From Polaribacter sp. Hel1_85 (GTDB lineage: Bacteria; Bacteroidota; Bacteroidia; Flavobacteriales; Flavobacteriaceae): DNA of 64,000 nt. Below, piece by piece: positions 34,166 to 53,228 of the stretch (positions are counted from its first letter, which is position 1; the number at the start of each line of letters is the position of its first letter). The DNA is taken from the NCBI RefSeq assembly GCF_000766795.1, contig NZ_JPDS01000003.1, forward strand, positions 310,001-374,000. Reading direction: 5' to 3'. The notes under the pieces are model-generated. The model had not been told where the DNA came from. It did no database searches and saw only the letters and a program-made list of their open reading frames with translations. The translations under genes and the position numbers were made by a program.

Positions 34166-34212
34166 TTAAAAAGAGGAAATTTAAAAATTTATTATAAAAA
34201 TTGGTGAGTTAG

Positions 34213-34290
34213 TTTAGCCCTGATTGAAATGGCATCCTTTTTTTTTCATAAAAAAAGATATAATGGAAAGCAGGAAATGGCTTCTAAAAA
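34213..34290 (+). repeat. Dispersed element A, copy 2
   Basis: Begins TTTAGCCCTGATTGAAATGG and ends GAAAGCAGGAAATGGCTTC. A central hairpin, ATCCTTTTTTTTT with AAAAAAAGATAT, separates the ends, and AGCC (34216-34219) can pair with GGCT (34279-34282). Lies at the 3' end of rnhB, which is on the other strand. The ends match copy 1 at 3375-3548. Confidence 0.7.
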
Positions 34291-48862: not shown

Positions 48863-48877
48863 TTTTAATACTAAAAA

Positions 48878-48908
48878 AATCCTTCAGGTTTTAAAACTTG
48901 AAGGATTT
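48878..48908. repeat. Palindromic hairpin between elements C and A
   Basis: AAATCCTTCAGGTTTT followed by AAAACTTGAAGGATTT forms an almost perfect dyad (one mismatched pair). It could act as a terminator in either direction or be another small palindromic repeat. Confidence 0.55.
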
Positions 48909-49056: not shown

Positions 49057-50139
49057 TTATCCGTTTATAATTTTTTCTTGGTGATTGATAGATTCTTGGT
49101 GAATTGCTTTAAACATTTTTAAAACAAACTCTTCACTTAAACCTCTATTACTACCTTCTAAAACCATGTTTCCTAAAATCTCGTTCCAACGACGTGATTG
49201 TAAAACAGCAACGTTTTCATCTTTCTTTAACTGACCGATTTTGTCTGCAACTTGCATTCTTTTACCTAACAAGTCGATTAACTGATCATCTACAACGTTA
49301 ATTTGAGCTCTTAAGTTTTCTAAAGGTTCTCTGTAACTAATAGCAGTTTCAGTTTCTTTTTTAACTTTTAAGTCTTGCATTATTTGCTTTAAAGAATCTG
49401 GTGTTACTTGTTGTGCAGCATCAGACCAAGCATTTTCTGGATCGTAATGAGTTTCAATCATTAAACCATCAAAGTTTAAATCTAATGCAGTTTGACATAC
49501 ATCAAAAATCATATCTCTATTTCCTGTAATATGAGATGGATCGTTGATTAAAGGTAAATCTGGAAATTTATTTTGAAACTCAATAGCTAATTGCCATTCT
49601 GGAGTATTTCTATATTTTGATTTTTCGTATGTTGAAAATCCTCTATGAATTGCTCCTAAATTTTTGATTCCTGCAGTATATAATCTTTCGATACCACCTA
49701 ACCATAAAGCTAAATCTGGATTTACTGGATTTTTAACTAAAACAATTTTATCTGTTCCTTGCAAAGCATCTGCAATTTCTTGCATAATAAAAGGTGATAC
49801 TGTAGAACGAGCACCAATCCATAATAAATCTACATCATACTCTAAAGCTAACTTTACATGTGCTGCATTTGCAACTTCTGTACAGGTTTTCATGCCTGTT
49901 TCTTCTTTTACTTTTTGTAACCATTTTAAACCTAAAGCTCCAACACCTTCAAAATTTCCTGGTCTTGTTCTTGGTTTCCAAATTCCGGCACGGAAATAAT
50001 TTACATCAGAATCTTTTAATTCGTGTGCAATTTTTAAAACCTGTTCTTCGGTTTCTGCACTACAAGGCCCTGCTATTACTAGTGGATGCGCTAAATTCAT
50101 ATCATCCAACCATGTTCTTAATTCTTTTGTATTCTCCAT
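49057..50139 (-). CDS. Bifunctional DAHP synthase / chorismate mutase
   Basis: Entry enzyme of the aromatic pathway. 360 residues. N-terminal DAHP synthase of the KDO8P-synthase-like type (about 1-265): VIAGPCSAETEEQ, RAGIWKPRTRPGNFEG, HRGFSTYEKSKYRN, DPSHITGNRDMI, GLMIETHYDPENAWSDA. C-terminal AroQ-type chorismate mutase (about 270-355): LRAQINVVDDQLIDLLGKRM, QSRRWNEIL. The fusion lets chorismate mutase sense prephenate and feed back on DAHP synthase (known in related fusions). Last gene of the operon pheA-aminotransferase-tyrA-this gene, under the attenuator at 53.1 kb. Confidence 0.95.
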   Translation of the reverse strand: MENTKELRTWLDDMNLAHPLVIAGPCSAETEEQVLKIAHELKDSDVNYFRAGIWKPRTRPGNFEGVGALGLKWLQKVKEETGMKTCTEVANAAHVKLALEYDVDLLWIGARSTVSPFIMQEIADALQGTDKIVLVKNPVNPDLALWLGGIERLYTAGIKNLGAIHRGFSTYEKSKYRNTPEWQLAIEFQNKFPDLPLINDPSHITGNRDMIFDVCQTALDLNFDGLMIETHYDPENAWSDAAQQVTPDSLKQIMQDLKVKKETETAISYREPLENLRAQINVVDDQLIDLLGKRMQVADKIGQLKKDENVAVLQSRRWNEILGNMVLEGSNRGLSEEFVLKMFKAIHQESINHQEKIING

Positions 50140-50159: not shown

Positions 50160-51011
50160 TTATTTTATGCCGTTTAAAATTTGTTTAATATAATTTGTGT
50201 TCTCCATTTCGTTAAAAATTTCAGAGAAATTATCTTGTTGCATCAACTCTTTAAATTGTTGTAAATTATTGATGTATTCTTCTAACGTTTCTATTACGTT
50301 TTCTTTATTTTGTTTAAAAATTGGTGTCCACATTGCTGGTGAACTTTTTGCCAAACGAACAGTTGAAGCAAAACCAGAACCTGCCATATCAAAAATATCA
50401 CGTTCATTTTTTTCTTTATTGATAACTGTTTTACCCAACATAAATGCACTAATGTGAGATAAGTGCGAAACATACGCAATATGCTTGTCATGAGAAACAG
50501 GGTCCATGTAACGAATACGCATTCCAATGGCTCTAAAAAGCTCTAAAGCTTTTTCTTGAAGCTTAAAAGTTGTCTTTTCTACTTCACAGATAATGTTCGT
50601 TTTCCCAACGTATAAGCCAGAAATAGCTGCTGTTGGTCCAGAATTTTCTGTTCCAGCAATTGGATGACATGCTAAAAAATTTCTTCTTTTTGGATGATGT
50701 TCAACCGCTTTACAAATTGCTTCTTTTGTTGATCCAGCATCTACAACCAAACCATTATCTGATATTTTATCTAAAATCGTTGGCAATAATTTTACAGTTG
50801 CATCTACAGGAATTGATACAATTACCAAGTCTGCATTTTCTATATCATCTAGAGTTGCTTTTTTGTCTATTAGTTTTAATTCTAAAGCCTTATTTAAGGT
50901 TTCGTCTTTTCTACTAATTCCATGAATTACAACATCTGGATTGTTATTTTTAATATCGATAGCAAAACTACCGCCTATTAAACCAATACCAATCATGTAA
51001 ATATTTTTCAT
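50160..51011 (-). CDS. tyrA: Prephenate dehydrogenase
   Basis: Oxidises prephenate to 4-hydroxyphenylpyruvate with NAD(P)+ (tyrosine branch). 283 residues. Seen: NAD-binding GIGLIGGSFAIDI (about 7-19), VDAGSTKEAIC, HPIAGTENSGP with the catalytic His, and a C-terminal helical dimer domain (HIAYVSHLSHISAFMLG). No ACT domain, so tyrosine feedback at the enzyme may be weak. Three bases separate it from the aminotransferase gene. Confidence 0.94.
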   Translation of the reverse strand: MKNIYMIGIGLIGGSFAIDIKNNNPDVVIHGISRKDETLNKALELKLIDKKATLDDIENADLVIVSIPVDATVKLLPTILDKISDNGLVVDAGSTKEAICKAVEHHPKRRNFLACHPIAGTENSGPTAAISGLYVGKTNIICEVEKTTFKLQEKALELFRAIGMRIRYMDPVSHDKHIAYVSHLSHISAFMLGKTVINKEKNERDIFDMAGSGFASTVRLAKSSPAMWTPIFKQNKENVIETLEEYINNLQQFKELMQQDNFSEIFNEMENTNYIKQILNGIK

Positions 51012-51014
51012 AAT

Positions 51015-52157
51015 CTATAATCTTGATATTGCTTCTTTAATTATTTCTGAAGTTACACATAATGAAAATCGGATATATCCTTCTCCTTGAGAACCAAAAA
51101 TAGTTCCTGGAGTAATAAAAATATCGTTATTGTATAAAACTGAATCTGTAACTTCTTCAGATTTTTTTCCTTCAGGAATCTTTGCCCAAACAAATAATCC
51201 TGTTGCGTTTTTATTATACGTTGCATCTAATTTATCTGCTAATTGCCAAATTAGATTTCTACGTTCTTCATATATTTTATTCTGATCTAAAAACCAATCA
51301 TCAGATAATTGTAATGCTTCTATTGCTCCTTTTTGAATTCCGTAAAACATACCAGAATCCATATTAGATTTTACTTTTAATATTTCATTGATATAAGTGG
51401 CTTTTCCTAAAACCATACCTACTCGCCAACCAGCCATATTAAACGTTTTACTTAAAGAATTTAATTCTAAAGCAATGTCTTTTGCACCTTCAACTTGTAA
51501 AATACTAATAGGATTATCGTTTAAAATAAAACTATAAGGATTGTCATTGATGATTAAAATATTGTGTTTTTTTCCAAAAGCAACCAATTTCTCAAATGTT
51601 TCTAATGTTGCGTCTGTACCTGTTGGCATGTGTGGATAATTTACCCACATAATTTTTACATTCTCTAAATCTTGGGCTTCTAATTCTTCAAAATTAGGTT
51701 GCCAATTATTAGCTGCATCTAAATTGTAAAATAAAGGCTCTGCACCTACTAATTTTGTAACAGAAGTATAAGTTGGATATCCAGGATTAGGAATTAATAC
51801 TTTATCACCTTCATTTAAAAAAGCCATAGAAATATGCATAATTCCTTCTTTGCTTCCCATTAAAGGTAAAATCTCATTTTCTGGGTTTGAATCTACAGAA
51901 AACTTATTTTTATAGAAAGTAGAAATTGCAGTTCTTAGCTCTGGTAATCCTTGATAAGATTGATATTTATGCGCATTTGCATCTCCTAAACTTTTAGAAA
52001 TTGCTTCTAAAACTTTTGTTGGTGGTTGCAAATCTGGAGATCCAATTCCCATATTGATAATTGGTTTTCCTGCAGCAACTAAACCTCTAACTTCTCTTAA
52101 TTTTTTAGAGAAATAGTATTCTTGAACTGTGTCTAATCTTTTGGCTGGTTTAATCAT
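51015..52157 (-). CDS. PLP-dependent aminotransferase of the aromatic operon
   Basis: Class I/II aminotransferase, 380 residues from the ATG at 52157; an upstream TTG at 52184 lies inside a palindromic repeat and is rejected. Seen: GIGSPDLQPP, NPGYPTYTSV, NDNPYSFI and the PLP lysine in SLSKTFNMAGWRVG (about 225-238). Location between pheA and tyrA suggests it transaminates phenylpyruvate and 4-hydroxyphenylpyruvate (or prephenate) to give Phe and Tyr. The exact acceptor range is inferred from context. Confidence 0.93.
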   Translation of the reverse strand: MIKPAKRLDTVQEYYFSKKLREVRGLVAAGKPIINMGIGSPDLQPPTKVLEAISKSLGDANAHKYQSYQGLPELRTAISTFYKNKFSVDSNPENEILPLMGSKEGIMHISMAFLNEGDKVLIPNPGYPTYTSVTKLVGAEPLFYNLDAANNWQPNFEELEAQDLENVKIMWVNYPHMPTGTDATLETFEKLVAFGKKHNILIINDNPYSFILNDNPISILQVEGAKDIALELNSLSKTFNMAGWRVGMVLGKATYINEILKVKSNMDSGMFYGIQKGAIEALQLSDDWFLDQNKIYEERRNLIWQLADKLDATYNKNATGLFVWAKIPEGKKSEEVTDSVLYNNDIFITPGTIFGSQGEGYIRFSLCVTSEIIKEAISRL

Positions 52158-52172
52158 ATTATTTTGAATGAG

Positions 52173-52192
52173 ATCCTGAAACAAGTTCAGGA
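52173..52192. repeat. Palindrome between pheA and the aminotransferase gene
   Basis: ATCCTGAA (52173-52180) and TTCAGGAT (52185-52192) form a hairpin in the only notable gap inside the aromatic operon. I recall GATCCTGAAACAAGTTCAGGAT-type palindromes in other flavobacteria (unverified). It may trim or stabilise the operon mRNA. Confidence 0.5.
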
Positions 52193-52200
52193 TAGCTGCG

Positions 52201-53025
52201 CTATTTTCTACCGTTTTTATAGGTTCCTAATATTTTAAATTCTTCAGCCATTATTTCTATAATTGCTTCTGCTTTTTTGTAATCTTTATATTCATCAAAA
52301 GTTATATCAACAAAAAACGAGTATTTCCAGGGAGTTTCTATAACTGGTAAAGATTGAATTTTAGTTAAATTCATTTTACAATCGCTCAACACATTTAGTA
52401 TTGCTGCTAAACTTCCTCTTTTATGATTCAATTGAAATTTTAAAGAAGCTTTATTTACTTCTTCATCAATTTTTGGTTCTTCAGTTTGTACAATTACAAA
52501 TCTTGTAGAGTTATCTTTTATAGTCTGAATTTCATCTTCAAGAATTTCTAAACCAAAAATTTCTGCTGCTATTTTTGGAGCAATTGCCGCAATACCAACT
52601 AAATTTTCTTTCGAAATTCTTTTAGCTACTTCTGCTGTATCTACATCTTCAACTAATTTAATATGAGAATGCATTTTAAAGAATTCTTTACATTGTAACA
52701 ATGCCATTGGATGTGACCAAACTTCTTTAATATCTTTAATTTCCTGACCTTTTAATGCCATTAAATGATGATGAATATTTAAATATTCTTCATTTGTTAT
52801 ATGCAAATTGTGTTTATCAATTAAAGCGTAATTAGGAATAATTGAACCTGCAATTGTGTTCTCTAAAGCCATCACTCCAAGATTTGCAGAACCCTCTAAC
52901 AAACTATCTACCAACTCATCAAAAGACATACATTCTTTTAATTGTATTGAAGTTCCGTAAAAGTCGCGAGCAACTTTATGGTGATTTGAGCCTTCTGCTC
53001 CTTGAATGGCAATAGTTTTATTCAT
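52201..53025 (-). CDS. pheA: Prephenate dehydratase
   Basis: Converts prephenate to phenylpyruvate (phenylalanine branch). 274 residues. Seen: PDT domain (about 1-180) with IAIQGAEGSNHHKVA, NTIAGSI and the catalytic DNSTRF (TRF 174-176), then an ACT domain (about 195-270) with HKRGSLAAIL. The ACT ESRP motif, which binds Phe in the E. coli enzyme, reads QSLP (224-227), so allosteric control may differ. First gene of the four-gene aromatic operon. Its start follows the attenuator terminator by 17 bases. Confidence 0.95.
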   Translation of the reverse strand: MNKTIAIQGAEGSNHHKVARDFYGTSIQLKECMSFDELVDSLLEGSANLGVMALENTIAGSIIPNYALIDKHNLHITNEEYLNIHHHLMALKGQEIKDIKEVWSHPMALLQCKEFFKMHSHIKLVEDVDTAEVAKRISKENLVGIAAIAPKIAAEIFGLEILEDEIQTIKDNSTRFVIVQTEEPKIDEEVNKASLKFQLNHKRGSLAAILNVLSDCKMNLTKIQSLPVIETPWKYSFFVDITFDEYKDYKKAEAIIEIMAEEFKILGTYKNGRK

Positions 53026-53042
53026 TAGTTACAAATAATGTC

Positions 53043-53075
53043 AAAAAAAAAGCCTCGAATTAAATTCGAGACTTT
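53043..53075 (-). terminator. Attenuator terminator in the pheA leader
   Basis: On the minus strand: AAAGTCTCGAATT (53075-53063), AATTCGAGGCTTT (53061-53049), then a run of nine T (53051-53043). It lies between the leader peptide ORF and pheA, so it would stop transcription before the operon. Its 5' arm is shared with the antiterminator. Confidence 0.85.
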
Positions 53076-53116
53076 ATATTATATGAATGCTTCTTAACAA
53101 CATGATACAAAGTCTC
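53068..53116 (-). promoter_or_regulatory. Antiterminator of the aromatic operon leader
   Basis: RNA GAGACUUUGUAU (53116-53105, end of the leader ORF) pairs over 12 consecutive positions (one G-U) with AUAUAAAGUCUC (53079-53068). The latter includes the 5' arm of the terminator, so the two structures exclude each other. The loop contains the leader stop codon. Confidence 0.75.
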
Positions 53117-53174
53117 TGCTTTTATTGTAAAAATAAAAGTAAAAATAGAAACGAGTAAAAGTGTTATTTAACAT
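53094..53174 (-). CDS. Phe/Tyr leader peptide of the aromatic operon
   Basis: A 26-codon ORF starting with ATG (53174-53172) and ending TAA (53096-53094). Residues 8-18 read RFYFYFYFYNK: four Phe-Tyr pairs in a row (codons 9-16), with further Phe at 6 and 22. It lies just upstream of an antiterminator and terminator and of pheA. A ribosome stalled at scarce Phe- or Tyr-tRNA would leave the antiterminator free; a ribosome reaching the stop would cover it and allow termination. This is the classical amino acid attenuation layout, here tuned to both end products of the operon. Too short for ordinary gene callers. Confidence 0.85.
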   Translation of the reverse strand: MLNNTFTRFYFYFYFYNKSRDFVSCC

Positions 53175-53197
53175 TTGTATGCTCTTTGTTTGAGAGA

Positions 53198-53228
53198 CAA
53201 ATCTAAAGATTAAATTGAAACAAACAAA
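53198..53228 (-). promoter_or_regulatory. Promoter of the aromatic operon leader
   Basis: On the minus strand, TTTG (53228-53225), exactly 19 bases, TAGATTTG (53205-53198): a full match to the Bacteroidetes -33/-7 consensus. The leader ATG lies 24 bases beyond. The rest of 53229-53335 shows no gene. Confidence 0.7.

Follow-up and report, generated by a model that had tools for sequence, protein, structure and literature searches.

A putative Phe/Tyr leader-peptide attenuator upstream of the pheA operon in Polaribacter and other Bacteroidia

The window analyzed here, a stretch of 64,000 nucleotides from the marine bacterium Polaribacter sp. Hel1_85, carries the pheA operon and its leader on the minus strand (Table 1). 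Upstream of pheA, we found the elements that an initial annotation of the locus had proposed: a promoter-like motif, an ORF of 26 codons with four consecutive Phe-Tyr pairs at codons 9 to 16, and a terminator with nine T. The motif has the form TTTG-N19-TAGATTTG, which we take to be the Bacteroidetes promoter consensus. The same annotation placed a 12-bp antiterminator after the ORF; the length is right, but the 5' strand lies inside the ORF. The 12 bp, one of them G-U, form between GAGACTTTGTAT and ATATAAAGTCTC, and antiterminator and terminator compete for part of the same letters. The pheA ATG, at 53025, lies 17 nt past the T run. Attenuators of the trpL/hisL/pheL kind call for a small ORF with many codons for the amino acids made by its operon, as found here. 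They also call for an intrinsic terminator and an antiterminator that exclude each other and lie between this ORF and the first gene, which sequence and folding indicate at this locus.

Table 1. Features of the leader and operon, with positions in the window. Named loci are the best 80 of 84 pheA loci found in a named collection.
Feature	Position	Strand	Details
Promoter-like motif, TTTG-N19-TAGATTTG	53198..53228	-	Read from sequence; TTTG 53228-53225, TAGATTTG 53205-53198
Leader ORF, MLNNTFTRFYFYFYFYNKSRDFVSCC	53094..53174	-	26 codons, ATG at 53174
Putative control codons 9-16, TTC TAT TTT TAC TTT TAT TTT TAC	53127..53150	-	FYFYFYFY
P1 hairpin	53119..53139	-	53139-53132 paired to 53126-53119; covers F/Y codons 12-15 and those that come next
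Antiterminator 5' strand (segment 2), GAGACTTTGTAT	53105..53116	-	Within ORF codons 20-24
Antiterminator 3' strand (segment 3), ATATAAAGTCTC	53068..53079	-	Overlaps terminator 5' arm
Intrinsic terminator hairpin	53049..53075	-	12 bp with one G-U, -12.8 kcal/mol
U tract	53043..53051	-	Nine T; first three pair at stem foot
pheA, prephenate dehydratase	52201..53025	-	PF00800, E 2.5e-53; weak ACT match
Class I/II aminotransferase	51015..52184	-	3' of pheA in 80/80 named loci
tyrA, prephenate dehydrogenase	50160..51011	-	Downstream in 77/80 named loci
DAHP synthase fused to chorismate mutase	49057..50139	-	Downstream in 76/80 named loci

The named loci come from Polaribacter, Tenacibaculum, Lutibacter, Algibacter, Flavivirga, Flaviramulus, Lacinutrix, Zeaxanthinibacter, and other genera, and all 80 have an ORF with at least six Phe or Tyr within 10 residues 5' of pheA. 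Together with 30 loci from a genus search, they make up a near set of 110 loci (L002 to L111), which includes the window's own locus and near-duplicates and contains 97 distinct leaders. At least seven aromatics in 10 residues were found in all 110 upstream regions, compared to 1.3% of dinucleotide shuffles; among shuffled upstream regions, six aromatics were reached in 1.0 to 5.0% and seven in 0 to 1.3%. The promoter-like motif, searched as TTTG-N17-22-TAnnTTTG, is present in 65 of 109 near loci and 0.8% of shuffles, with its -7 element mostly 22 to 24 nt 5' of the leader ATG (23 nt in the window). Farther out it is rare, occurring in 2 of 28 family loci and 6 of 21 order or class loci.

For the samples of the family, order, and class, the loci considered are the best matches of each search. 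In the family sample, where 53 of 60 genomes matched, 28 of 30 loci had at least six aromatics in 10 residues and the other two lacked the leader. The corresponding count was 12 of 28 in the order sample (L142 to L169; 32 of 59 genomes matched), where five of the leaders belong to the window's own family and seven to four other families, and 9 of 15 in the class sample (L171 to L185; 17 of 60 genomes matched), where most of the sampled genomes had no comparable pheA to inspect. Five aromatics together with a terminator occur in order loci L161 and L168 and class loci L174 and L178. Among the best matches examined, 14 of 28 order loci and 4 of 15 class loci lack the leader. The leaderless order loci comprise seven from one family (f4; L142 to L146, L150, and L162) with a distantly similar PheA (83.6 to 94 bits), six from 0.6-Mb genomes, and L149. 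Locus L148, from a 0.6-Mb genome, carries, 55 nt 5' of pheA, an ORF rich in F that starts with TTG; it was left out of the count. Outside class Bacteroidia, none of 26 phylum loci reached six aromatics in 10 residues (the highest had five), with gene starts placed crudely at whichever start codon came first in frame, an approach by which a leader may be missed. Overall, the predicted leader arrangement is found across many members of class Bacteroidia.

A terminator-like hairpin follows the leader in all 110 near loci and all 49 distant leaders, mostly about 15 to 53 nt beyond the stop codon among the loci listed, some of which have hairpins that the detection over-extended back to the stop codon. 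Of 164 loci, near-duplicates included, 142 had a duplex between ORF and terminator arm that beat shuffles at p ≤ 0.05, and 102 reached p ≤ 0.01; the other 22 pheA loci had p above 0.05. We also exchanged arms among 57 representatives, a comparison that ignores relatedness and skips the window's own locus (L082) and L136, which have over-long hairpins. Leaders paired with their own terminator 5' arm at -11.75 kcal/mol, compared to -7.74 (SD 0.30) after exchange, and none of 10,000 permutations reached the energy of the own pairing. For the two arms of the terminator, the values were -14.18 with the own arm and -8.01 when exchanged. The own arm was the single best or tied partner for 12 of 57 antiterminators and 28 of 57 terminators, numbers that would be expected if relatives often have an arm in common.

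Of the 97 distinct near leaders, 74 entered alignment A1, in which the window stands for its own locus. The remaining 23 are divergent (e.g., L020, L036, and L073), were shortened by the script (L008 and L032), or are near-identical to a kept row. Terminator cells in A1 are paired in 99.9% and antiterminator cells in 90.8%, and the cells paired, the cells with two-sided change, and the covariation score were matched by 0 of 500 shuffles. Other measures were reached by most shuffles: pairs with two-sided change in P1 and the antiterminator by 301 of 500, further pair types in the same two stems by 492 of 500, and further pair types in P1 and the terminator by 500 of 500. Both antiterminator and terminator stems are nearly invariant within the near set. 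Where the ORF ends early with TGA, the segment 2 letters past the stop are still kept. In the exchange of arms, the predicted leader, antiterminator, and terminator show covariation throughout the class. The initial annotation had suggested looking for the F/Y ORF, both stems, and covariation in Flavobacteriaceae, and the comparison bears it out there and reaches other families of the order and class.

P1 cells in A1 are paired in 99.5%, and one P1 pair is U-A in 35 cases, C-G in 31, and broken in none, its 5' change being silent (TAT/TAC). Against shuffles, however, P1 is weak: with regions filtered and de-duplicated, it reached p ≤ 0.05 in no more than 26 of 75 from the near set, 4 of 21 from the family, and 3 of 19 from the order or class. 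The weakness is greatest beyond the near set, so we claim P1 for the near set alone and rejected it as a class-wide feature.

The leading edge of the E. coli ribosome lies 15 nt past the first base of the P-site codon. Using E. coli footprint sizes, we positioned ribosomes in silico on 148 leaders, after 16 of the 164 loci had been dropped for an antiterminator p > 0.1 or fewer than six aromatics. Under a stalled ribosome, 98% of the aromatic codons would leave segment 2 free, and the gap from the ribosome edge at the last aromatic codon to segment 2 is mostly +3 nt (65 of 148 loci). A ribosome at the stop codon would cover at least four of the first seven nucleotides of segment 2 in 136 loci, including 69 in which it covers all seven, and fewer than four in 12 of the 148. 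At the window's own locus, all eight codons leave segment 2 free, and the ribosome at the stop codon covers five of the seven nucleotides. The ORF ends either about 20 nt past the start of segment 2, as in the window, or with a TGA at the segment 2 edge, and both types of ending are compatible with attenuation geometry. Attenuation requires that a stalled ribosome free segment 2 and that a ribosome at the stop codon mask it, and by geometry the leader provides for both.

Anatomy, conservation, covariation, and in silico geometry together support the initial reading of this region as a ribosome-mediated attenuator, and we consider it very probable that a transcription attenuator sensing Phe and Tyr precedes the pheA operon. 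Leader-peptide attenuation requires a ribosome close behind RNA polymerase. In the proposed mechanism, RNA polymerase would start near 53190 and transcribe the leader ORF, which a ribosome would translate closely behind it. When Phe- or Tyr-tRNA is scarce, the ribosome would stall on codons 9 to 16 with its leading edge short of segment 2, leaving segment 2 to pair with segment 3; this pairing would block the terminator and allow transcription of pheA and the aminotransferase, tyrA, and DAHP synthase/chorismate mutase genes. When both Phe and Tyr are ample, the ribosome would proceed to the stop codon and cover much of segment 2; segment 3 would then pair with the terminator's 3' arm, ending transcription at the T run near 53043. 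That the leader is real is well supported by comparison; the mechanism we infer from analogy and geometry.

The strict alternation of Phe and Tyr emphasized in the initial annotation is typical of the near set but does not extend beyond it, where the two residues are mixed without alternation. Every leader scored, 110 near and 49 distant, contains both, and sensing of both amino acids would fit the content of the leader and the operon. An alternative is that the same terminator answers to an arrest peptide, which would sense a small molecule or drug through the nascent chain instead of reading charged tRNA. Arrest leaders that sense small molecules exist elsewhere, and in the near set the F/Y core and its codons are highly conserved, both of which speak for this alternative. 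However, residue order is free in the 49 distant leaders (dipeptides FF 97, YF 94, FY 85, and YY 24), which keep only the aromatic content; in addition, the operon genes serve Phe and Tyr synthesis, and the genome has parallel leaders for other amino acids. An arrest peptide is, on these grounds, very unlikely.

The parallel leaders precede hisG (MNFIQNHHRHFYNCSQAI, with HHRH; L192, G000:C1), a trpE-like gene (MKNILNNTWWWNSLIK, with WWW; L207, G000:C2), and ilvD (MNNQLLNIISIIIVIVIITA, with IISIIIVIVII; L241, G000:C3) in the same genome, and each is followed by a terminator-like hairpin. Across 14 genomes of the genus, 13 of them with ilvD, leader and terminator were found at hisG in 14 of 14, at the trpE-like gene in 14 of 14, and at ilvD in 8 of 13. 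A simple test of the antiterminator duplex was significant in 13 of 14 his leaders and gave p > 0.05 in every trp (14) and every ilvD (8) leader. Because no duplex was significant in the latter two groups, we claim only a leader plus terminator for them. Each genome also has a weaker second trpE match (L216 to L229); no Trp-rich leader was found among the 6 of 14 listed, and these matches were left out of the trp leader counts.

A further reading is that the hairpin and T run serve only to terminate an upstream gene, with the F/Y ORF arising by chance from AT-rich DNA. An aminotransferase class V gene does lie upstream on the same strand, ending 260 nt before the hairpin, and the F/Y run is not improbable as bare DNA in this AT-rich genome: the pattern TTYTAYTTYTAYTTYTAY has two overlapping matches, both at the leader, and its reversed control has three. 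Because the bare pattern is not unlikely in the genome, our rejection of chance relies on place, structure, conservation, and covariation, and the latter two rule out a chance run. Synteny rules out the terminator of the upstream gene: the leader and the downstream aminotransferase gene are present in 80 of 80 named loci, unlike the upstream gene, which is present in only 6 of 80 (70 of which had at least 1,500 nt upstream). We regard this combined explanation as extremely improbable.

Control of the terminator by a riboswitch, T-box, or bound protein, with the ORF untranslated, would suit the strong structure of the leader (z -3.38 against dinucleotide shuffles) but is barely conceivable, since no Rfam family reaches its gathering score in the leader and F/Y is kept class-wide with both synonymous codons (TTT 180, TTC 92, TAT 133, and TAC 37 in the 49 distant leaders). 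This use of both codons for conserved residues points to selection on the peptide. A search for T-boxes and metabolite riboswitches gave no match, and within the window only Flavo-1 and one tRNA reach Rfam gathering scores. Rfam membership of the leader was rejected in the same way; the Phe_leader family (RF01859) scored below gathering in it (20 bits versus 55, E 0.59).

The ribosome-mediated attenuator proposed here resembles known systems. In the pheL-pheA system of enterobacteria, a leader peptide with Phe codons, an antiterminator, and a terminator precede pheA, and pheL responds to Phe only. The Polaribacter leader shares with this system (RF01859) the leader peptide, antiterminator, and terminator before pheA; unlike pheL, it contains both Phe and Tyr codons, and the operon behind it serves both amino acids and includes a DAHP synthase. 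Enterobacterial thrL and ilvL show that one leader can sense several end products of one operon, as we propose for the pheA leader, although they differ from it in amino acids, phylum, and Shine-Dalgarno initiation.

The initial annotation knew of no described flavobacterial case, a statement that has to be revised. In Flavobacterium psychrophilum, strong clues of leader-peptide attenuation 5' of amino-acid operons have been reported, along with a structured 5' element before pheA that is common to other Flavobacteriaceae and has no Rfam match (PMC9723704). That element involves the same gene and bacterial family, and attenuation is suggested there for amino-acid operons, so this kind of attenuator was known and its place already pointed at. 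The text consulted of PMC9723704 gives no peptide, antiterminator, covariation, geometry, or reach beyond Flavobacteriaceae. Measured against that text, our predictions add a peptide, an antiterminator that covaries, a ribosome geometry, and a distribution extending through Bacteroidia; the mechanism is not new. In Acholeplasma, the uORFC-13-1 motif before aroF has been proposed as a Phe-reading uORF with a terminator (PMC8632094); it likewise combines a uORF and a terminator before an aromatic gene but, as described there, differs in having at least one Phe codon, another structure, and another phylum. Leader-like sORFs have been described in Bacteroides thetaiotaomicron (PMC7366714), and Bacteroidetes leader genes near structural genes have been counted in connection with reinitiation (PMC4833913). 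The latter paper cites Lopatovskaya 2010 as a comparative survey of attenuators, and that survey may contain an earlier prediction. Our open-access keyword search, with most subscription journals outside its scope, found no experimentally tested attenuator in class Bacteroidia.

In the 87 of 97 near leaders with an F-Y-F-Y-F-Y type core, codon 6 (53159-53157), three codons before the core, encodes W in 51, F in 26, and Y in 7, and at least 84 of the 87 have TGG, TTT, or TAT/TAC. By this comparison, codon 6 is an aromatic position with drifting identity. In counts that ignore kinship, W is present in 66 of 110 near and 21 of 49 distant leaders; the window's own leader has F at codon 6 and no W. 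The exchange of W, F, and Y at codon 6 raises the possibility that Trp might serve many relatives as an additional, third signal, as would be reasonable for a leader that precedes DAHP synthase. Codons 9 to 11 (53150-53142; TTC TAT TTT) are nearly invariant in the same leaders, synonymous positions included (85, 78, and 81 of 87). These codons lie 5' of P1, and no pairing that explains their invariance was found.

We tentatively entertain a broader reading, which we rate as somewhat less than an even prospect: a sensor of Phe, Tyr, and, in many lineages, Trp, ancestral to much of Bacteroidia, might jointly adjust the initial step of the shikimate pathway and the Phe and Tyr branches as part of a set with His, Trp, and Ile/Val attenuators. 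If true, such a sensor and set would need tight transcription-translation coupling without Shine-Dalgarno pairing. Bacteroidia ribosomes fail to recognize Shine-Dalgarno sequences (PMC9976891). As a conserved element with consistent geometry, the leader would allow coupling in Bacteroidia to be tested directly, and it offers a defined target for the study of aromatic amino acid synthesis control in this class. Elsewhere in the window, a Flavo-1 RNA (RF01705), for which PMC9723704 reports no clear function, lies at 34212-34281 (+) with 71.4 bits, and terminator-like hairpins with 14-bp stems lie at 48877-48908 (+) and 46387-46356 (-).
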